Below, piece after piece: positions 494 to 15,439 of a stretch of DNA of 34,037 bases; the first letter of the stretch is position 1, and the number at the start of each line of letters is the position of its first letter. Where the stretch lies: positions 75,433 through 109,469 of the forward strand of contig JAHJSB010000012.1 of assembly GCA_018830285.1 (NCBI GenBank), read 5' to 3'. The notes under the pieces are model-generated. The model had not been told where the DNA came from. It was given only the letters and a program-made list of their open reading frames with translations, and did not search any database. Both the position numbers and the translations under genes were made by a program. Source of the stretch: Alphaproteobacteria bacterium (GTDB lineage: Bacteria > Pseudomonadota > Alphaproteobacteria > Caulobacterales > Hyphomonadaceae).

Positions 494-1864
494 ATGGCCG
501 AGCAACGCACGATCAAGAAGGTCCTGATCGCCAATCGCGGCGAGATTGCCCTGCGAATTCACCGCGCCTGCAAGGAAATGGGCCTGATGACGGTTGTGGT
601 TCACTCCACCGCCGACCGGGACGCCATGGCCGTGCGCCTTGCCGACGAAAGCGTCTGTATCGGCCCGCCGCCCTCCTCGGAAAGCTATCTCAAGAAATCC
701 CAGATCCTCGCGGCTGCTGAAATCACTGGCGCCGACGCGATCCATCCCGGCTACGGCTTCCTGTCGGAGAACGCCCAGTTCGCCGAAATGGTCGAGGCTC
801 ACGGCCTGGCCTTCATCGGCCCGACGGCCGAGCATATCCGCATCATGGGCGACAAGATTGCCGCCAAGGTGGCGATGATCGAGGCCGGTGTGCCCTGCGT
901 GCCGGGCTCCGAAGGTGCGCTGACCTCCATTGCCGAAGCCAAGAAGGCCGCCAAGAAGATCGGCTTCCCGGTCCTCGTGAAGGCCTCCGCCGGTGGCGGT
1001 GGTCGCGGCATGAAGCTCGCAAGAACCGAAGCCGACCTTGAAAACGCGGTGAAAACTGCCAAGACCGAGGCCAAGGCCGCGTTCGGCGACGACGCCGTCT
1101 ATCTCGAAAAATACCTCGAAGGCCCGCGCCATATCGAAGTCCAGATCATTGCCGACACGCATGGCAACGTGGCGCATCTCTGGGAGCGAGACTGTTCGCT
1201 CCAGCGTCGCAACCAGAAAGTCTTCGAGGAAGCCCCTTCGCCGGCCCTCAACCAGGCCCAACGCGAGGAAATCGGCGGTATCTGCGCCCGTGCCATGGAA
1301 AAGCTCGGCTATCGCGGCGCCGGTACGATCGAGTTCCTCTATGAGGACGGCAAGTTCTACTTCATCGAAATGAACACCCGCCTGCAGGTCGAACATCCCG
1401 TCACCGAGATGATCACCGGCATCGACCTCGTGCGCGAACAGATCCGCATTGCTGAAGGCAAGGAGCTCTCGTTCCGCCAGGAAGACGTGATGCTGGTCGG
1501 CCACGCCATCGAGTGCCGGATCAATGCCGAACACCCGGAAACCTTCGTGCCTTCACCTGGCCTGATCACGGATTTCCATGCCCCGGGCGGCCCGGACGTG
1601 CGACTCGATAGCGCCGCCTATGCCGGCTACCGCATCCCACCGCATTATGATTCGCTGATCGGCAAGCTCATCGTTCACGGTCGCACACGCCGCGAATGCA
1701 TCATGCGCCTGCGCCGCGCGCTGGCCGAAATGGTTGTCGGCGGCGTCTTCACGACGCTCGACCTGCATCGCCGCCTCGTCGACAATGAAGACGTGCTGGC
1801 CGGAAACTACAATATCCACTGGCTCGAAAAATTCCTCGCCGAAAACAAGATCACGGCCGAGTAA
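494..1864 (+). CDS. accC: Biotin carboxylase subunit of acetyl-CoA carboxylase
   Basis: ATP-dependent carboxylation of the biotin on AccB. The 456-residue protein has the whole biotin carboxylase fold: an N-terminal domain opening with [11 protein letters not shown], an ATP-grasp domain with the glycine-rich loop [12 protein letters not shown] (163-174), the block [20 protein letters not shown] (231-250), and the metal/catalytic segment [14 protein letters not shown] (292-305) containing the Glu, Asn and Arg residues of the active site. A TTG three codons earlier (485) would overlap the accB stop; I prefer the ATG at 494 because it gives the usual family N-terminus. Translation is probably coupled to accB. 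accA and accD are not in the window. Confidence 0.97.
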
Positions 1865-1937
1865 AGCCCGGGCCTTCTCAACAGCTGGCGCAGTCTGCCC
1901 CATGGACAGGCGCGCCAGCGAGATTCATATTCAGATC

Positions 1938-2660
1938 ATGTCATCGCGCTTCGGAACCCAGGACCTGCTCGCCTGCTATCGCCGGGGCGTCTTCCCGATG
2001 GCGGATTCGCGCGATGATCCGAACCTGTTCCTCGTCGATCCCGACTTACGCGGCATACTTCCGCTCGACGCCTTCCACATCCCCCGACGCCTGAAGCGCA
2101 CCGTGATCCAGGAACCCTACCGCGTGACCGCCGACACGGCGTTCACGCGCGTCATGGAATTTTGTGCCGAGGAAGGTGCCGGGCGCGAAAGCACCTGGAT
2201 CAATTCCGCAATCCTCAATCTGTACAGCAGCCTGCACCGCGAGGGGCACGCCCACTCCATCGAATGCTGGGACGGCGACCAGCTCGTCGGCGGGCTGTAC
2301 GGCGTCGCGATTGGCGGGGCCTTTTTCGGTGAGAGCATGTTTTCGCGCGCCACCGACGCGTCAAAGATAGCGCTGGTTCATCTCGCTGCCCGCCTGATCG
2401 CCGGCGGCTACACGCTGCTCGACGCGCAATTCCACAACCCGCATCTCGAACAATTCGGATTGATCGAAATTTCGCGCGCGGATTTCAAGGCCCGCCTGCG
2501 CGACGCGCTGACGGTCACCGCGGATTTCTATTCCGGGGTAGGCTCGGTATCCAGCGACGGCGGGACATCGTCCAGCAGTGGCTCGTCGGCCGGTGCGATG
2601 ACGGGCGCTGGCAGCTTCACCGGGGCTGGCGCAGTACAGCGGATCACCCAGATATCATAG
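1938..2660 (+). CDS. aat: Leucyl/phenylalanyl-tRNA--protein transferase
   Basis: Adds Leu or Phe from aminoacyl-tRNA to N-terminal Arg/Lys of proteins, marking them for ClpS/ClpAP degradation (bacterial N-degron pathway). Recognised by [11 protein letters not shown] near the N-terminus, the block [20 protein letters not shown] (85-104) and the signature [20 protein letters not shown] (131-150). Start at 1938 gives the usual N-terminus and 240 residues; an in-frame ATG at 1902 is an alternative, and neither has a strong ribosome binding site. The family-like part ends near residue 195. The last ~43 residues are Ser/Gly-rich low complexity and are encoded on the antisense of the DUF2155 gene, a 133-bp tail-to-tail overlap. 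The tail is probably not functional sequence; loss of an earlier stop is a likely origin. Confidence 0.93.
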
Positions 2661-5270: not shown

Positions 5271-5292
5271 GTGATTCGCGAAGGAGCCGCTT

Positions 5293-7533
5293 ATGCCTGA
5301 CCAAAGCCGGGACGAAATCCTGACCGCCGCCGAATCCGATGGCCTCATATCGCCCGAGACGGCGTTCGGCACACTCTGCCGTGCTGCCGGGCTCACACCG
5401 GCCGACATGACGCCCATGGCCCTTGACGGGCTCGCTGCGTCGGCCTCAGCCGCCAGCCTGCAGAGCGTGTCCCAGCTCGCGCTCGCCGAAATGCTCGAAC
5501 GCCTCGGGCCCGCCCCTCGCAATGCCGAACTGGCCGAGGCCCTCGCCTCGGGCCTGCCACAGGACCTGCTCGAAGAAGCCCTTCGCCTGCCCGGCGGCAT
5601 CCTGCGCACTGCCGACGCCCTGCGCGCCGCCGCTGTCGATACGCCAGCGCCGCCACCCGCCGTCTTCACCGCCCGGCCTGTCGACATCGCGATCGAGCCA
5701 TCCCTGCTGGCTGCGCTGAAGGAAGGCGCGGAGATCCTCTTCCTGAAGGATGCCCTGCCGCCAGCCGCTGCGCCCGCCCGCATGGTCGATGTCTCGCAAG
5801 CCGTCAGCCCGGACGGATTCGAGGACGAATTCCTCATCTCCGCCGTAGAAGCCGCCACTGCTGACATGAAAGACGGGATCATCGTCCTAACCGGCCTTGG
5901 CGCTGCCGTCATGGCGCTCGGCCTCGACTATGCCTCCGATGCGGGCATCGCCGCCGGTGCCGCCATGTCGGCGCTCGTTCGCTCAGCCGCTGCCGGCGCC
6001 GCATTCAGCGCGAGCCATGCCAAAGCGCTCGGTCTTCAGGCCCGCAAGTCGGGCAGCAAGCGCCCGTGCCGCGTCATGATCCTGCCCGTCACCGATCCGA
6101 TGGCTGCCCTGCCCGATTGCGAAAGCGACGCCGCCGCACCGGTCCGCGCCGTACTCACCTATGGCGACGACGCGCCCAGCCTCACCCGCGCCGCGCGAAT
6201 CGGCCTCGCCGCCCGCGCGCCCGAAGCCCTGCCCGGCGTACTCGACCGGATATCCAATTCAGGCACGCAGGATCTCGAAACGGCACTCGGCATCGCGCGC
6301 CTGCGCGACCGGGGCTTCACCGAAGCCGCACTCGACCGGGTGGGCCGCGCGCTCGGCGAGGGCCTGCCGCTCAATGCTGCCTTCTCGCGCTGGGTGCTCG
6401 GCGACGAGATCATCTCCCATGACCTGAAGCTCACGCCCGAGAATTTTGATGCCGACGGGCGCGGCGTGCTGTCCGCCATGGGCTTTTCGCGCGCAGACAT
6501 CGCCAAAGCCGAGGCCGCTCTCGACGGCGCAGGTGAGGCCATCGCCGCGCGCGCGCTGCAGGAATGCGGTTTCGTGATCGACGTGTCACCGACGGACGAA
6601 ATCCGCTTTGCTGTCGCCTGCGACAAGGCGCTGGGCGGCGGAGTCGTCGTTTCGGTCAGTGCCCGCGCCGGTCTCGACATGGCCGAAGCCGTCATTGCAG
6701 ACGGCCTGTCGGCCCATCTGGTCGGCCATCGCGCGCCTGCCGGTGAAGACGTCCGTGACCGGATGGAGCATATCCTCTCCCTCGCCGAGGAACTCGCCGA
6801 CGAGGCTGACCTGCCGCAATCATCGCCGGAATTCCGCGAAGCCCGGTCCGCCGCCCGCACCCGCCTGCCCGACCGGCGAAAGGGCTATATCCAGAAAGCC
6901 ACCGTCGGCGGCCACAAGGTCTATCTCCACACCGGCGAATTCGATGACGGCCATCTCGGTGAGATCTTCCTCGACATGCACAAGGAAGGCGCCGCGTTCC
7001 GCAGCCTGATGAACAATTTCGCCATCGCCACCTCGATCGGCCTGCAATACGGCGTGCCGCTGGAAGAATTCGTCGATGCCTTCGTGTTCACCCGCTTCGA
7101 GCCGGCTGGCCAGGTCACCGGAAACGACCGCATCACGCGCGCCACGTCTATCCTCGACTACATCTTCCGGGAACTGGCCGTGTCCTATCTCGGCCGCGAC
7201 GATCTCGCCGAAGTCGATGTCACGCACGACGGGCTTGGCCGCGGCGCGGGCGATGCCACGCGCGAGCCGGCGGAATTCACCGAAGAGGCGGCCCAGATCA
7301 TCTCGCGCGGATTCTCTCGTGGCCACCTGCCCGACAATATCGTCATCCTCGACAAGCGCCGCGCCGAGAAACAGGCCGAATCGGATCTTGACGCCGGCGC
7401 CGAGGAACTTGAATCGCCCGCCTATCTCGAACAGGGCTGTGAATCCTGTGGCAGTTTCACGGTTTTCACCATCAGCGATGAGGGCGACACGTCCTGCGAC
7501 ACGTGTGGCGAAGAAGGCCGCGTCTCCAAATAA
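5293..7533 (+). CDS. NrdJ-derived protein with intact C-terminal domain, no reductase motif
   Basis: This 746-residue protein resembles the C-terminal part of alphaproteobacterial class II (adenosylcobalamin) ribonucleotide reductase NrdJ. About 525-640 is very NrdJ-like, with [58 protein letters not shown] and [17 protein letters not shown]. The tail also fits: [11 protein letters not shown] (677-687) and two CxxC pairs, Cys716/719 and Cys735/738. Weaker likeness extends upstream: [14 protein letters not shown] and FSRWVLGDE (341-372), GFSRADI (397-403), and about 198-250, which resembles the barrel helix region after the catalytic loop. The catalytic NPCxE-type motif, the TINMP-type loop and the N-terminal half (substrate and allosteric parts) are absent; residues 1-190 are Ala/Leu-rich and unrecognised. 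NrdJ is about 1,200 residues as I remember. The AAGGAG six bases before the ATG is strong and the frame is intact, so it is probably expressed but not a reductase. Confidence 0.8.
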
Positions 7534-7674: not shown

Positions 7675-8418
7675 ATGACTGGTATGCTTTTCCGCCTGAA
7701 CTTGCTTGCCGTGATCGCCCTCTTGGGCGTGTCGGTCCCTTCCGTTGCGCAGGGCAAGCCGGTTGCGTGGCAACCCGGCTATGTCGGATCGTGCGGCGGA
7801 TGCAATCTTGCGGGTCGCAACATGTCCGGCTGGACGCTCAGCGGGGCGAACTATCCCGGTGCCAATCTCGAATTCGCCTTCATGCGCGGCATCCAGGCCA
7901 CCAGCGCCAATTTCGAAGGCGCCAATGCGTCCGGCGTCGACCTGCGCACGGCCGTCCTGACATCAGCCCGTTTCTCCGATGCCGTCCTGTCGAATGCCCG
8001 CCTGATGGGCGTTCAGGCCACCGGTGCCGAATTCCGTAAGACCATCCTGCGCGGCGCCAACATGCAGGGCGCGCTGATGGTTGGTGCCAATTTTTCGGAA
8101 GCAGACCTGGGCGAGACCCAGCTCGATGAGGCTGACCTTTCTGGCGCAAACCTTACCGGTGTGAAATTCGACAAGGCCGTGATGAAGGCAACCATCCTCA
8201 ATGGCGCCAACATGACGGGCGTCATGATGACTGGCGCAGATGTCGCTGGCGCCTCGTTCCGCGACGTGCGGTTCATCGCAGCCGACCTCTCCGGCATGAC
8301 ACATCACGACCTGGCAAACTTCACCGGCGCCTGCAGCTCGATCGACACGCTGATGCCACCCGGCCTGCTGCTGCCGCTGTGTGGTGATGTCATCATGGCG
8401 AGCACCACAGCGCAATAA
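7675..8418 (+). CDS. Exported pentapeptide-repeat protein
   Basis: A 247-residue protein with an N-terminal signal peptide (hydrophobic about 8-24, cleavage near VAQG) and pentapeptide repeats of the A(N/D)LxG type from about residue 43 to 210, for example NLAGRNMSGWTLSGANYPGA and LSGANLTGVKFDKAVM. This predicts a right-handed quadrilateral beta-helix outside the cytoplasm. Two Cys sit at the N-cap (Cys40, Cys43) and two after the last coil (Cys220, Cys236), likely disulfides capping the helix. The ATG at 7675 or the one at 7684 could start it; no clear ribosome binding site decides. No partner domain is present, so function is unknown; DNA-gyrase mimicry, known for cytoplasmic members, does not fit an exported protein. 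Confidence 0.85.
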   Translation: MTGMLFRLNLLAVIALLGVSVPSVAQGKPVAWQPGYVGSCGGCNLAGRNMSGWTLSGANYPGANLEFAFMRGIQATSANFEGANASGVDLRTAVLTSARFSDAVLSNARLMGVQATGAEFRKTILRGANMQGALMVGANFSEADLGETQLDEADLSGANLTGVKFDKAVMKATILNGANMTGVMMTGADVAGASFRDVRFIAADLSGMTHHDLANFTGACSSIDTLMPPGLLLPLCGDVIMASTTAQ

Positions 8419-8577: not shown

Positions 8578-10401
8578 TCAGGTTTTCACCTGAGGCGCGA
8601 GCCGGATGTTCAGCTCTTTCAGCTGCCTGTCGTCGACCGGGCTCGGTGCGCCCATCAACAGGTCCCGCGCCTGCTGGTTCATCGGGAACAGGATCACGTC
8701 ACGCAGGTTCTCGACCTCGGCCAGCAACATCACGATCCGGTCGACGCCCGGTGCAATCCCGCCATGCGGCGGCGCGCCATAGCGGAACGCGTTCAGCATG
8801 CCGCCAAACTTCTCTTCCACCACTTCCGGGCCATAGCCAGCCAGTTCGAATGCTTTCAGCATCAGGTCAGGCCGGTGGTTCCGGATTGCGCCGGATGACA
8901 GTTCGATGCCGTTGCAGACGATGTCATACTGGTAGGCCTTGATGTCGAGTTGCTTCTCCACCGTGTCGGCTGCCAGCAGCTTCTCCATGCCGCCCTGCGG
9001 CATCGAGAACGGGTTATGGCTGAAATCGACCTTCTTGTTGTCTTCGTCCCATTCATACATCGGGAAGTCGATGATCCAGCAGAAGCGGAAGATGCCCGGC
9101 TCGATCAGGCCCAGCTCCTCGCCGATTCGTGTCCGGGCAGCCCCGGCCAGTTTCACGGCATTGGTCTTGTCGCCCGCCGAGAAGAACAGCGCGTCTCCGG
9201 CTTTCACGCCAGCCGTCCCGGCCAGTGCGGCAAGGGCTTCAGGCGCAAAGAACTTGGCAATCGGGCCCGTGCCCGCCAGCTTGCCGTCCTCTTCCACGAA
9301 GCGGATATAGCCAAGCCCGGGCGCCTGCATCTCTTTCTTGGCCCAGGCATCCATCTTGTCGAAGAAGCTGCGCGGCTGCTCGGCGGTGTTCGGTGCCGGA
9401 ATGGCGCGCACAATGCCGCCGCCATCCACGATCTTCTTGAACACGCCCAGCGTCACGTCTTCGCGCGTCACCACGTCGGACACGTCGCAGATGACGATCG
9501 GGTTGCGCAGGTCCGGCTTGTCGGAGCCGTATTTCAGCATCGCTTCGGCAAACGGGATATGCACGAACGGCTCGTCCGGCACGGTGCGGCCCTTGCCGTC
9601 CCAGTCCGCGAATTCCTCGAACACGCCGCGCAACACGGGTTCGATGGCGTTGAACACGTCTTCCTGCGTAACAAAGCTCATTTCGATATCGAGCTGGTAG
9701 AATTCGCCCGGGCTGCGGTCAGCGCGCGCATCCTCGTCGCGGAAGCAGGGCGCAATCTGGAAGTAGCGGTCAAAGCCCGACACCATCAACAGCTGCTTGA
9801 ACTGCTGTGGCGCCTGCGGCAGCGCATAGAACTCGCCCGGATGGATCCGGCTTGGCACCAGGAAGTCGCGCGCGCCTTCCGGGCTGGAGGCCGTCAGGAT
9901 CGGCGTCTGGTATTCGGTAAAGCCCTCACCCACCATGCGCTGGCGCAGGCTGGTGATCACGTTCGAACGCAGGATCATGTTCTTGTGCAGCGTCTCGCGG
10001 CGCAGGTCGAGATAGCGGTGCTTGAGGCGGATATCTTCCGGATAGTCTGGCTCGCCGAACACGGGCAGCGGCAACTCGGCAGCCTCGGACAGTACTTCCA
10101 CCGACCCAGCCACCATTTCGATCTCGCCGGTGCCAAGGTTCGCGTTCACCAGGCTCGCATCGCGCGCCACGATCTTGCCCTCGATGGACAAGACGCTCTC
10201 GGTGCGCAGGCGCTCGACCGTCTCGAATCCGGGCGCGCCGGGATTGAACACGACCTGCGTCAGGCCATAATGGTCGCGAAGGTCAATGAACATGACACCA
10301 CCATGGTCGCGGCGGCGGTGCAGCCAGCCGGACAATTTGACGGTTTCGCCCACGTGGGACGCGCGAAGTTCACCGCAAGTATGGGTGCGATAGGCATGCA
10401 T
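8578..10401 (-). CDS. aspS: Aspartyl-tRNA synthetase
   Basis: Class II aminoacyl-tRNA synthetase of 607 residues, the normal bacterial length with a GAD insertion domain. The N-terminal OB-fold anticodon-binding domain contains [19 protein letters not shown] (25-43). Motif 2 is seen in [20 protein letters not shown], and motif 3 in the C-terminal [15 protein letters not shown]. His33 in RRRDH is the residue usual in non-discriminating enzymes that also charge tRNA-Asn; this is an inference. The ATG has GGAG about 12 bases upstream. The gene diverges from rnd across a 97-bp gap. Confidence 0.97.
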
Positions 10402-11786: not shown

Positions 11787-13268
11787 CTAGCGAGTCACGA
11801 CCGTCGGCTTGAGCCGCAACTGGTTTGCCGTCTGCGTCAGGCGCCGCAACACCGTGTCTGACACCATCGGCTCGTCCACTTTCAGCACGTGCAGCTCCAG
11901 GTTCTCGCCCTTGCGCGCCAGGCTCGCGCGTTTCAGGATCGGCCCCGACCGTCCCGAGAACACTGCACCCAGCCGCATCGCGCTGCCCAGTTGACGCGCC
12001 CGTTCAGCCTGCTCGTCGCTTGTCAGGCTCAGGTACTCGCCCGGTCGTTTGAAATCCTTCTCGTACCGGCACCCGACAGCAAAGGCGATCATGCCCCGCT
12101 CTGCATGCGTCACGCCCGCATAGGGCGCCCGCAAGGCCTGCTCGTAGGCCAGCAGCGCCCGGTGGTCCGGATGGAAGCGCCCGGCGCTGTCAGCCATCAT
12201 GCAGGCAGCCTTCTCGATCCGCGCGTCAGCAGCCGGAGACCCGAACAGGTCCGGCTCCGGCGCGAATGCAGGGCTGACAAATTCGTGCAGCGCCTGCCCG
12301 AAGGCAATCTGGTTCTGGTCCAGCCGCCCGAACGCGATCACGCCGTCAAGCAGCGGGTCTGTCACCGCCGCGCCGGTCAGGTCGCGCAACACGCCTTCGC
12401 GCAGTCCGCCCGATGAAATCGTCACGCCTTCCAGCGGGCTGATGGCCAGGACTTCTTCCAGGATGATCGCGGCGATCGGCAGGTGTTTCGCTCGCCGACG
12501 GTCGACTTTTTCCACCCTGCTGCGCGCGGTCGCATTGCTGACGCTGTCCACGCAAAGCTTCGCGGCCCGTGCCACCTGTCCCTCGTTCATCTGGTATCCC
12601 TGCAACACGTGCAGCGGATAGTTCTCGATCTCCATGTTCAGGCGCGCAAACGATCGCCACGCGCCGCCCACGGCATAGAACCGCCCCTCTGCCCCGGGCA
12701 GCACTTTCGAGGACTTGAGTTCCGCGCGCACTTTCCTGCGCAACTCGCGCAGGTCGCTGGCTTCCTCGGCCAGCGACAGCGGGCCCAGCAACAGGCTTTC
12801 GCCTCGCGCCTTGCCAGAGCCGATCCTCTGGAATTCGATGCTCGATCCGCCAAGGTCGCCCATCACGCCCTTCGGTCGATGGAAGCTCGCCTCCACCCCC
12901 AGCGCCGACAGCCGCGCCTCGTCAGCGCCCGCCAACACCATGACCGGTCGCCCCAGCACCCGTCCGGCCTTTCTCACGAAGTCTGCCCCGTCGCTCGCCT
13001 CGCGGACGGCGGCGGTGGCGACAGCCGTGTAATTGCGCAAATGCAGGGCCTTCAGGATCGCGCGATACCGGCTCAGCGCGCTCAGCGCCGACTCCCGTCC
13101 CGTCGGTGACAGGGTTCCGCGCTGGATCAGCCCCTCGCCCAGTCCAGCCATGACCTTCTCGTTGAATGTCTGGAGGATCGACGCGCCCAGCACGTCATAG
13201 ATCACCAGACGCACCGAGTTTGAGCCGATATCGATAATTCCTGCGCGCTCGGTTTTCGGAAACATCAT
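11787..13268 (-). CDS. ppx: Exopolyphosphatase (Ppx/GppA family)
   Basis: Hydrolyses terminal phosphate from inorganic polyphosphate; GppA-type activity on pppGpp is possible in the family. The 493-residue protein has the sugar-kinase/HSP70-like ATPase fold signature [16 protein letters not shown] near the N-terminus and the phosphate-binding loop [11 protein letters not shown] (134-144), followed by a long C-terminal helical domain as in full-length Ppx. The start overlaps the ppk stop (ATGA), so synthesis and breakdown of polyphosphate are translated from one message. Two adjacent ATGs (13268 and 13265) exist; the first overlaps the ppk stop. Confidence 0.94.
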
Positions 13269-15439
13269 GCCGGTTTGCTTCCCCGGTGCGACAGTCTTGG
13301 CGGCAGGCTGACCTCCAGCGCGCTGCCCCGTCCCGACAGGCTTGGATTGTCCATGAAATACCGGTGCGCCGCGAACGCCGTGTCCGGGTTCTCCGGCATG
13401 AAGCGGTGATAGGTGCCGTCCTCATGCATGATCCAGCTCTGCAGCTCGTCATTCAGGTTGGCGACCATGATCTGGTTCAACACCTGCCGGTGCACGGTCG
13501 GGTTTTCGATCGGCACCAGCGCCTCGACCCGGCGCGTCAGGTTGCGCGGCATCCAGTCTGCCGACGAGATGAACACTTTGGCGTTCGGTGACGGCAGCGC
13601 CTCGCCACTGGCAAAGCAGACGATCCGCGAATGTTCCAGGAACCGCCCGACAATGCTCTTGACCGTTATCGTCTCCGACAGGCCCGGCACGCCCGGCCTG
13701 AGGCAGCAGATGCCTCGGACCACCAGCGTAATCGGCACGCCAGCCTGGCTGGCGCGATACAGCGCATCGATCACTTCGCCGTCGACCAGGGAATTCATCT
13801 TGGCCCAGATGCCGCACGGCTTGCCCTTTTTCGCGGCCGAGACCTCGTCCCCGATCATCCTGATCAGGTCCTGCTTCAGGGACAGGGGCGACATGGATAT
13901 CTTCTCGAGAACCGGACCGACACGCGGTGGTTCGCGATAGGCCGTCACGAAATTGAACAGGCGGTTGGCATCCCGCCCCAGCGCTGCATCGGCGGTGAAC
14001 AGGGACAGGTCGGTATAGATGCGCGCATTGATGGGATGATAGTTCCCAGTTCCGAAGTGCGTATACGAACGAAGCTCCGTGCCTTCGCGTCGCACCACCA
14101 TAGACACCTTGGCGTGCGTCTTGTATTCGATGAACCCGTAAACGACCTGCACGCCGGCCCGTTCCAGGTCGCGCGCCAGCCGCAGGTTCGCTTCCTCGTC
14201 GAACCGCGCCTTGATCTCGACCAGCGCTGTCACGTTCTTGCCGGATTCCGCCGCCTCGATCAGCGCCGCCACGACCGGCGAGTTCGACGTCGTCCGGTAC
14301 AGCGTCTGCTTGATCGCCACGACCGCCGGATCGGCCGCCGCCTGCCGGATGAACTGCACCACCACATCGAAACTCTCAAACGGATGGTGGACCAGGATGT
14401 CCTTGGCCCGGATCGCGGCAAAGCAATCGCCGCCCATCTCACGGATGCGTTCGGGATAGCGCGGCTCATAGGGCGGGAATTGCAGGTCCAGCCGGTCGTC
14501 GACGATCAGTTCCGACAGCTGCGCCATGCCGAGGATGCCGTCATACAGCACCGTGTCGGCCTGCTCGGCGCCGATCTCGTGCGTGATGAACTCGCGCAAG
14601 ACCTGCGGCGCGCTCGACTGCATCCTGAGGCGCACGATACGCCCCCGGCGGCGCTGCTTCAGCATCACCTCGAACTCGCGAATCAGGTCTTCGGCCTCTT
14701 CCTCGATCTCGATATCGCTGTCGCGCACGACGCGGAACAGGCAGCGGGCCTTTTCCTTGAATCCGGGGAACAGGTCGCCGAGGAACATGCCGATCACGTC
14801 TTCCAGCGCAACGAACCGCATATGGCCCTTTGTCGATTTAGGCAGCCGGATGAAGCGGCGCACAAAGGCCGGCAGAGGCACGATCCCGACATGGCCTTCC
14901 CCGCCAGACTCCGACACAAGATCGACCGCGATCGAAAAGCCGAGATTGGGAATGAACGGGAACGGGTGCGCCGGGTCCACGGCCAGCGGTGTCAGCACCG
15001 GAAAGATATTGTTGCGAAAATAGGTCTCGAGCTCGGCACGCTCTTTCTTGGTCAGCGCATCGGCCGACAGGACGTGAATATTCTCCGCCGCCATTTCGCC
15101 TTTCAGCGTGCGCCACTGTTCCTGCTGGTCGGCGATCAGGCGCAGCGACGCCTTTTCGATCTGCTCGACCTGTTCGGATGGCTTCAGTCCGTCCTGGCTC
15201 GCCTTCACGATACCCGCCCGCACCTGTTCGCGCAGGCCCGCATAGCGCACCATCTCGAACTCATCGAGATTGCTCGCCGAGATCGACAGGAAGCGCAGGC
15301 GCTCCAGCAACGGGTGCGCCTGGTTGGCGGCTTCCTCGAGCACACGCTGGTTGAACTCCAGCCAGGACAGCTCCCGGTTCAGGAACCGGTCTGGCGACGT
15401 CATCAGCGCCTTGTTGGTCCGTAGTGTTCCGTCTGCCAT
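13265..15439 (-). CDS. ppk: Polyphosphate kinase 1
   Basis: Builds inorganic polyphosphate from ATP. The 724-residue protein has the four-domain PPK1 layout: an N-terminal helical domain with [16 protein letters not shown], a head domain, and two PLD-like catalytic domains. The autophosphorylated histidine is His442 in [10 protein letters not shown], followed by [17 protein letters not shown] (376-383) and [19 protein letters not shown] are further conserved PPK1 blocks. Start at 15439 is the first ATG; Met13 (15403) has an AAGG at good spacing and also precedes the conserved region, so it is a real alternative. It follows hdaA by 25 bases and overlaps ppx. Confidence 0.96.

Follow-up and report, generated by a model that had tools for sequence, protein, structure and literature searches.

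A degenerate nrdJ orthologue of Hyphomonadaceae that has lost its catalytic cysteines and is likely kept for its TSCPD tail

The window analysed here is a stretch of 34,037 nucleotides (positions 75,433–109,469) from contig JAHJSB010000012.1 of a 3.56 Mb alphaproteobacterial genome. The gene in question, a degenerate relative of nrdJ, encodes a protein of 746 amino acids (aa) related to the B12-dependent (class II) ribonucleotide reductase (RNR) NrdJ, and the closest named proteins come from Hyphomonas. The reading that we consider likely is that this is an nrdJ orthologue in its old place which has lost the catalytic and thiol-relay cysteines and survives through a second job of its TSCPD tail, one that needs no reduction. 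Sequence comparison and synteny show in-place descent, loss of catalysis, purifying selection and retention of two helical inserts, a basic lead-in, the TSCPD domain, a linear motif and a zinc ribbon (Table 1). A preliminary description, made from the DNA alone, had reported an uninterrupted frame of 746 codons behind a ribosome binding site, and both are confirmed.

The only Pfam match in the protein is TSCPD (PF12637), at residues 534–629 (E 1.1e-10, 42.2 bits versus a gathering cut-off of 22.8). The NCBIfam profile for B12-dependent RNR, NF005736, matches best at residues 519–698, corresponding to profile positions 966–1145 (E 1e-87), and the protein lies below the equivalog cut-off of that family (294.9 bits versus 1737). 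It is ~440 residues shorter than a 1188-aa true NrdJ reference (ref), with deletions of ref 1–110 and 144–266 plus smaller ones. The NrdJ landmarks previously pointed out at residues ~198–250, 341–372 and 397–403 align with NrdJ, and the alignment bears out the absence of the NPCxE and SKTINMP-type motifs. Relative to another class II-type RNR of the same genome, true NrdJ has an insert of 84–86 aa in the region of insert 1 and an insert in several pieces in the region of insert 2. Both regions are skipped in the alignment to T. maritima NrdJ.

Table 1 Features of the degenerate nrdJ gene and of its neighbours in the window
Feature	Positions	Strand	Basis
Ribosome binding site AAGGAG	5281..5286	+	Read from sequence; 6 bases 5′ of ATG
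Degenerate nrdJ, 746 aa (P0001)	5293..7533	+	Single open frame, 746 codons; domain and profile matches
Retained helical insert 1 of alphaproteobacterial NrdJ, residues 61–115	5473..5637	+	Aligns with true NrdJ ref 276–350
RNR barrel remnant without catalytic residues, residues 116–335	5638..6297	+	Alignment, predicted fold
Retained helical insert 2 (RGF...GF), residues 336–410	6298..6522	+	Aligns with ref 718–810
End of barrel remnant and linker, residues 411–518	6523..6846	+	Alignment, predicted structure
Basic lead-in and TSCPD (IscU-like) domain, residues 519–640	6847..7212	+	PF12637, NF005736
Conserved linear motif (ISRGFSRG...) between TSCPD and zinc ribbon, residues 670–683	7300..7341	+	Pattern count
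Four-Cys zinc ribbon without the two NrdJ thiol-relay Cys, residues 716–739	7438..7509	+	Alignment
aat, in block accC-aat-DUF2155-NDUFA12	1734..2660	+	Pfam; block at 15/18 loci
Pentapeptide-repeat protein with apparent signal peptide, downstream neighbour	7675..8418	+	PF00805; signal peptide by eye
aspS, locus marker	8578..10401	-	Pfam and NCBIfam; at 8/18 loci, also beside SAR11 stand-alone gene

To separate what was lost from what was kept, we aligned 17 true NrdJ and 64 degenerate proteins of the order; the latter represent part of the 112 genomes with the degenerate form described below, with a few from genus members outside the 160-genome sample. The true NrdJ of one genome (G091) was excluded from the counts. 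This gene (L098, on G091:C44) has its tail out of frame near the end, giving a 1112 aa frame with unrelated final residues, by frameshift or assembly error. The thiyl cysteine and the first active-site redox cysteine are found in 0/64 degenerate rows and the second redox cysteine in 1/64, and all are present in 17/17 true NrdJ. Likewise, the Asn of NPCxE occurs in 0/64 and its Glu in 1/64, versus 17/17 for both. In the tail, the four cysteines to which alignment assigns a zinc role are present at each place in 64/64 degenerate rows, the two redox (thiol-relay) cysteines in 0/64 (17/17 in true NrdJ), and exactly four cysteines remain between the ribbon and the end of the protein in 64/64. Because both redox cysteines are lost, the degenerate tail is without an NrdJ-style electron relay. 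The C-terminal domain, earlier described as intact, does contain the two CxxC pairs, 716/719 and 735/738, but has four cysteines where NrdJ has six.

Identity to the true-NrdJ consensus drops from 0.97 in true to 0.17 in degenerate rows over the catalytic stretch (ref 651–675) and is 0.87–0.93 across the degenerate set in the central tail (ref 951–1025). The helical inserts still have 0.29–0.39 identity in the degenerate set, although they are more variable in true NrdJ (0.59–0.66). Two short elements flanking TSCPD are widely kept: the Arg/Lys-rich lead-in P[DE]RR[KT]GYIQK (62/64 degenerate, 16/17 true and 74/80 SAR11 sequences) and the linear motif [ITV]S[KR]G[FYL]xR (61/64 degenerate, 15/17 true and 67/80 Pelagibacteraceae sequences). 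A run of N in the TSCPD of one genome (G057) was scored as a miss for two motifs in these counts.

Residues 1–480 are predicted to form a shrunken, collapsed RNR barrel, and the predicted fold is clearly RNR-like. The N-terminal half had been described as missing; the deletions are real, but the half is not simply absent. A structural relation to NrdJ, the lack of which would have spoken against the preliminary description, is thus predicted. AlphaFold2 on the 746-aa protein gave block means of 28–58 for residues 511–710 and 72–85 for the zinc ribbon. Because the values were low there, the SAR11 form (41-row alignment) was used to model the TSCPD part; a Foldseek search with this model returned no match at E 0.001. 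No PDB chain was found in a sequence search with the 746-aa protein, and the solved R. sphaeroides NrdJ construct, of 925 residues, stops before the tail.

The position of the gene supports the same origin. We compared 18 loci, 12 with degenerate and 6 with true nrdJ, using gene names from Pfam. At 12/12 loci the degenerate gene has accC, aat, DUF2155 and NDUFA12 genes on one flank, and the same block lies beside true nrdJ at 3/6 (G028, G032 and G040, all of family f5). Because this synteny is common to both forms, we regard the degenerate gene as the nrdJ orthologue in place and not as an adjacent duplicate. Descent from a class II RNR is indicated by an orthologous locus and, through structure prediction, by an RNR barrel fold. 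mlaD is found at 8/18 of the compared loci. A family of pentapeptide-repeat proteins with apparent signal peptides occurs at 17/18, including two true-nrdJ loci without the upstream synteny (L043 and L046). Not far from the locus, at window 11787–15439, genes for polyphosphate kinase and exopolyphosphatase are direct neighbours. For an NrdR-box-like consensus there were 0 matches in the window at ≤3 mismatches, with 0.5 expected by chance.

The distribution of the two forms was determined in 160 genomes of the order, calling a true NrdJ where PF02867 matched at E up to 1e-20 on the same frame as the tail, among listed matches that extend far below true-NrdJ scores, and a degenerate form where the tail had no such match. 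The tail is present in 150 genomes, of which 112 have the degenerate form, 38 have true NrdJ and none has both; 10 have neither. True NrdJ is found in 32/32 genomes of family f5 and 6/31 of f4, and the degenerate form in 33/33 of f1, 29/32 of f2, 31/32 of f3 and 19/31 of f4. Frameshifted relatives, named in the preliminary description as a sign of decay, are not the rule: one internal stop was found among the 150 tail matches listed. Three of the 112 degenerate frames are short (G099, G113 and G095), and the contig of G095 ends inside the fetched stretch. Within the genus, the degenerate gene has an orthologue in 25/25 genomes, split over two contigs in two of them (G001 and G015).

In the same list of matches, a PF02867 gene is present in 159/160 genomes of the order. 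Among the 25 genus genomes, NrdA is the sole PF02867 gene in 15, a further RNR gene is present in 9 and one (G010) has a fragment. An NrdA-type gene was found in 41/41 relatives, whether carriers of the tail or not, and NrdB in 40/41. Six NrdA proteins (G000, G027, G269, G377, G388 and G411) pass the cut-off of NF006577 (ribonucleoside-diphosphate reductase subunit alpha). The name of this family, the presence of NrdB genes in the relatives and characteristic motifs place the NrdA of these genomes in class I. On C51, the source genome itself (G000) has another RNR beside an NnrS gene (L001, L052), judged by eye to be of class II type (NPCGE, six-Cys tail); an additional PF02867 gene occupies a 612 aa frame at G000:C19:27872-29272.

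In a tree of all shared modules, 26/26 chosen degenerate rows from four families form one clade (100/100) relative to 13 true rows; common loss of catalytic constraint can draw such rows together. Because of this grouping, a single old loss in the order is the simplest reading. A tree of the tail alone did not discriminate between one clade and several among the order's degenerate forms (p-AU 0.393). In an NrdA tree of 25 rows, the true-NrdJ members of family f4 are nested among degenerate carriers, which means either that true nrdJ was regained there or that the two genes have different histories. The same tree (L209–L233) contains a very long branch (1.29) that sets the SAR11 and G388 proteins apart from all others, as if there were two kinds of NrdA.

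We estimated ratios of nonsynonymous to synonymous change (dN/dS) from Nei–Gojobori counts in five congener pairs, some of them near saturation. Over the whole degenerate gene dN/dS is 0.11–0.32. It is 0.01–0.07 in the lead-in and TSCPD (residues 519–640), 0.02–0.18 in insert 1, 0.02–0.12 in insert 2, 0.15–0.56 in the barrel remnant at residues 116–335, 0.14–0.34 at residues 411–518, and 0.10–0.34 in the zinc ribbon stretch (four pairs giving a value). Judged from these ratios, purifying selection is strongest on the inserts and the tail. With dN/dS well below 1, orthologues throughout the genus and an RNR-like predicted fold, the earlier view of a selected, non-enzymatic NrdJ relative holds. 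Loss of catalysis, purifying selection and a fold that is kept, by prediction, together point to an RNR pseudoenzyme.

The same outcome is seen, in differing degrees, in several alphaproteobacterial families with class I-type NrdA, the extreme being a bare TSCPD protein in SAR11, whose members are among the commonest cells of the sea. In a sample of 250 genomes of the class, incomplete ones included, the tail is present in 156, the listed frames being mostly as long as NrdJ. Eight genomes have reduced forms together with a PF02867 gene of NrdA length (620–659 aa). One (G388) has a degenerate frame of 918 aa in which PF08471 and part of the barrel are still detectable. Two (G180 and G411) have frames of 282–289 aa with TSCPD and a four-Cys ribbon, ~2 kb from aat and accC. 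Three (G198, G329 and G271) have frames of 530–667 aa without a ribbon and with a YjgF-type gene downstream (Pfam in G198). The last two (G269, of the Pelagibacteraceae, and G377) have frames of 278–280 aa with TSCPD only, accC upstream and aspS downstream. In families f31 and f104 (L125, L126 and L127), strongly diverged degenerate NrdJ without the zinc ribbon abuts or overlaps a YjgF endoribonuclease-like gene (Pfam in L127), and a YjgF-like gene was also noted by eye beside a short TSCPD protein at L119 and L120.

Within the SAR11 family f102 (Pelagibacteraceae), the stand-alone TSCPD gene is present in 27/28 genomes and NrdA in 28/28. Family f158, of the same order as f102, has a full NrdJ as the sole PF02867 match in 29/30 genomes (77–100% complete). 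Among loci of ≥12.5 kb with a Pelagibacteraceae or Pelagibacterales name, 37/41 have AccC-like and AspS-like motifs on the expected strands. The TSCPD module of the window shares 71–72% identity with that of two SAR11 genomes, as against 58–59% for AspS, 52–55% for AccC and 28% for Rnd. No catalytic domain was found by Pfam in the stand-alone SAR11 protein (P0129, P0131 and P0238), which is publicly named ribonucleotide reductase or ribonucleoside-diphosphate reductase alpha chain in 20 of 120 relatives listed. These proteins also have a conserved N-terminal stretch of ~55 residues (L117:3909-4073), with no Pfam match in the two scanned.

The tail appears to be there for its own sake, because it outlives the enzyme in several families, including in streamlined genomes, and changes more slowly than a tRNA synthetase. 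Its job would be independent of reduction, of the thiol relay, of the zinc ribbon and of the barrel. Alphaproteobacterial NrdJ would then be bifunctional: where class I RNR supplies deoxynucleoside triphosphates (dNTPs), catalysis by NrdJ would become dispensable and the barrel would be free to decay. The tail would be retained as a predicted assembly module that binds a conserved partner, either protein or nucleic acid, via the basic lead-in and a face of TSCPD, while the zinc ribbon would have a structural part and the dead barrel would be a platform. From their sequence conservation, the lead-in and the linear motif after TSCPD are candidate binding places and would be the places to look. 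The most speculative step is that tail assembly might respond to purine dNTPs. S. nassauensis NrdJ forms oligomers with dATP or dGTP that depend on the cysteine-rich domain (CRD) in its tail (PMC5704485, in excerpt), which makes assembly governed by nucleotides a sensible starting guess. A broader proposal, which we put forward tentatively and with some doubt, is that the tail is a housekeeping protein that couples the state of dNTPs or of replication in the cell to some conserved partner, and that catalysis was the dispensable part of NrdJ, discarded on the switch to class I while the tail protein remained.

Several observations weigh against maintenance for the tail. The tail is dispensable in some lineages, which speaks against its being vital: at the threshold used it is absent from 10/160 genomes of the order and from 94/250 of the class sample. 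The zinc ribbon is absent from the SAR11 forms and from those of G198, G329 and G271, so the ribbon lies outside the tail core. One barrel stretch (ref 526–550) is preserved like the inserts (0.43). The proportion of synonymous differences is lower in the tail (0.27–0.60) than in the barrel remnant (0.51–0.65), and this may reflect constraint at the level of DNA or RNA. The accC-aat-DUF2155-NDUFA12 block is absent at 3/6 true-nrdJ loci (G027, G035 and G036). One degenerate carrier (G156) has no PF02867 match at all, perhaps because of an assembly gap. Outside the order, the independence of the losses is deduced from family separation and not from a resolved tree. Finally, nothing was found on a partner, a phenotype or expression.

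Two other functions for the retained protein are each possible but rather unlikely. One is regulation of class I RNR in trans: through its RNR-like platform and tail, the protein would contact NrdA and adjust dNTP synthesis or its location. The NrdA-type genes of all 41 relatives and all 28 f102 genomes, and the NrdB genes of 40 of those relatives, are what it would need, and class II chains are reported to self-associate through their tails (PMC5704485, in excerpt). It is opposed by the ten tail-less genomes of the order, all with PF02867 genes, by family f158, where the tail occurs without an NrdA-length match, and by G156, where the degenerate gene occurs without any PF02867 match. The other, to which we give the same modest weight, is that the tail is a module for binding nucleic acid or the replisome or ribosome, used by NrdJ for its own placement and still binding in the free forms. 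The wide retention of the Arg/Lys-rich lead-in in degenerate, true and SAR11 sequences fits this, as does a TSCPD identity above that of AspS, which is expected with a slow-changing partner. Less probable than either is a ligand sensor in which the dead barrel binds nucleotides or cobalamin and signals via the tail: the stand-alone SAR11 form has no barrel, and no Rfam match at the gathering threshold, riboswitches included, was found in the window or at five other loci (L047, L046, L044, L050 and L135).

Readings that keep the gene tied to catalysis, or that give it no function, fare worse. Split class II RNRs exist (PMC9669993), and the protein could be one half of such an enzyme with its catalytic half elsewhere, as in NrdJa/NrdJb. 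This is very improbable, given that NrdA is the sole PF02867 gene in 15/25 Hyphomonas-genus and 28/28 f102 genomes and that the thiol-relay cysteines are lost; with no separate catalytic class II half in these genomes, we reject it unless NrdA itself is the partner. A decaying pseudogene, which the faster evolution and many deletions of the barrel remnant might suggest, is harder still to defend, since the gene is found without internal stops in 25/25 same-genus genomes, overall dN/dS is low and the 26 degenerate rows form one clade; conservation across the order leads us to reject it. We also reject the earlier suggestion that the protein binds NrdJ or competes for its thiol-transfer tail: the degenerate form and a parental-type NrdJ were never found together in any of the 160 genomes, and the thiol-relay cysteines are gone.

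If retention for the tail is correct, the tail persists in Hyphomonas and its relatives as a pseudo-reductase of ~750–1000 residues, and in SAR11 as a bare ~270-residue protein. This would suggest a second function of a textbook enzyme, located in a domain without any reported role as of 2022 (PMC9669993, section 2.4). SAR11 and its relatives provide a natural experiment, in which one order contains an NrdJ-only family beside a family with class I NrdA and the bare tail, and the function of TSCPD would be directly testable in a small protein. Tail proteins named as reductases are not reductases, and could bias annotation-based counts of B12-dependent metabolism.

Literature searches, based largely on listings, revealed no bacterial family of pseudo-reductases that is retained for the tail; the word TSCPD turned up in two papers, one about a methanol oxidiser and one about health records. 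Inactive herpesvirus RNR homologues and separately encoded class II tails are known already, and the bacterial counterpart appears, from these searches, to be new. To our knowledge, the inactive R1 homologues UL45 and M45 of betaherpesviruses are viral, of separate origin and without a TSCPD tail. Their likeness to the present family is that non-catalytic RNR homologues are kept for another role (PMC5469499, in excerpt). The split class II NrdJa/NrdJb (PMC9669993) resembles SAR11 in that a tail protein is encoded apart from the barrel, but no catalytic class II partner is encoded in the 15 Hyphomonas-genus or the 28 f102 genomes, and the redox cysteines are missing. TSCPD is IscU-like, but unlike the IscU/SufU scaffold it is without cysteine ligands: there is no cysteine in residues 519–640, nor in 80 SAR11 tails, and thus no IscU-type Fe–S site. 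The CRD of S. nassauensis NrdJ is likewise a C-terminal tail, with four cysteines proposed as zinc ligands at places that the degenerate protein also occupies; it relays electrons through two further cysteines, Cys933 and Cys945, the proposed redox pair, both of which the degenerate protein lacks (PMC5704485, in excerpt). The same excerpt describes the reverse case, in which some Frankia and a few Alphaproteobacteria have two NrdJd, only one with a CRD. Also close is the alphaproteobacterial B12-dependent NrdJ (NF005736/PRK07562; barrel 7B9P/7B9Q, Rhodobacter sphaeroides), with which the degenerate protein has in common its locus, module order, central tail and predicted barrel fold, and from which it differs in being shorter and without the thiyl cysteine and the active-site and tail redox cysteines.
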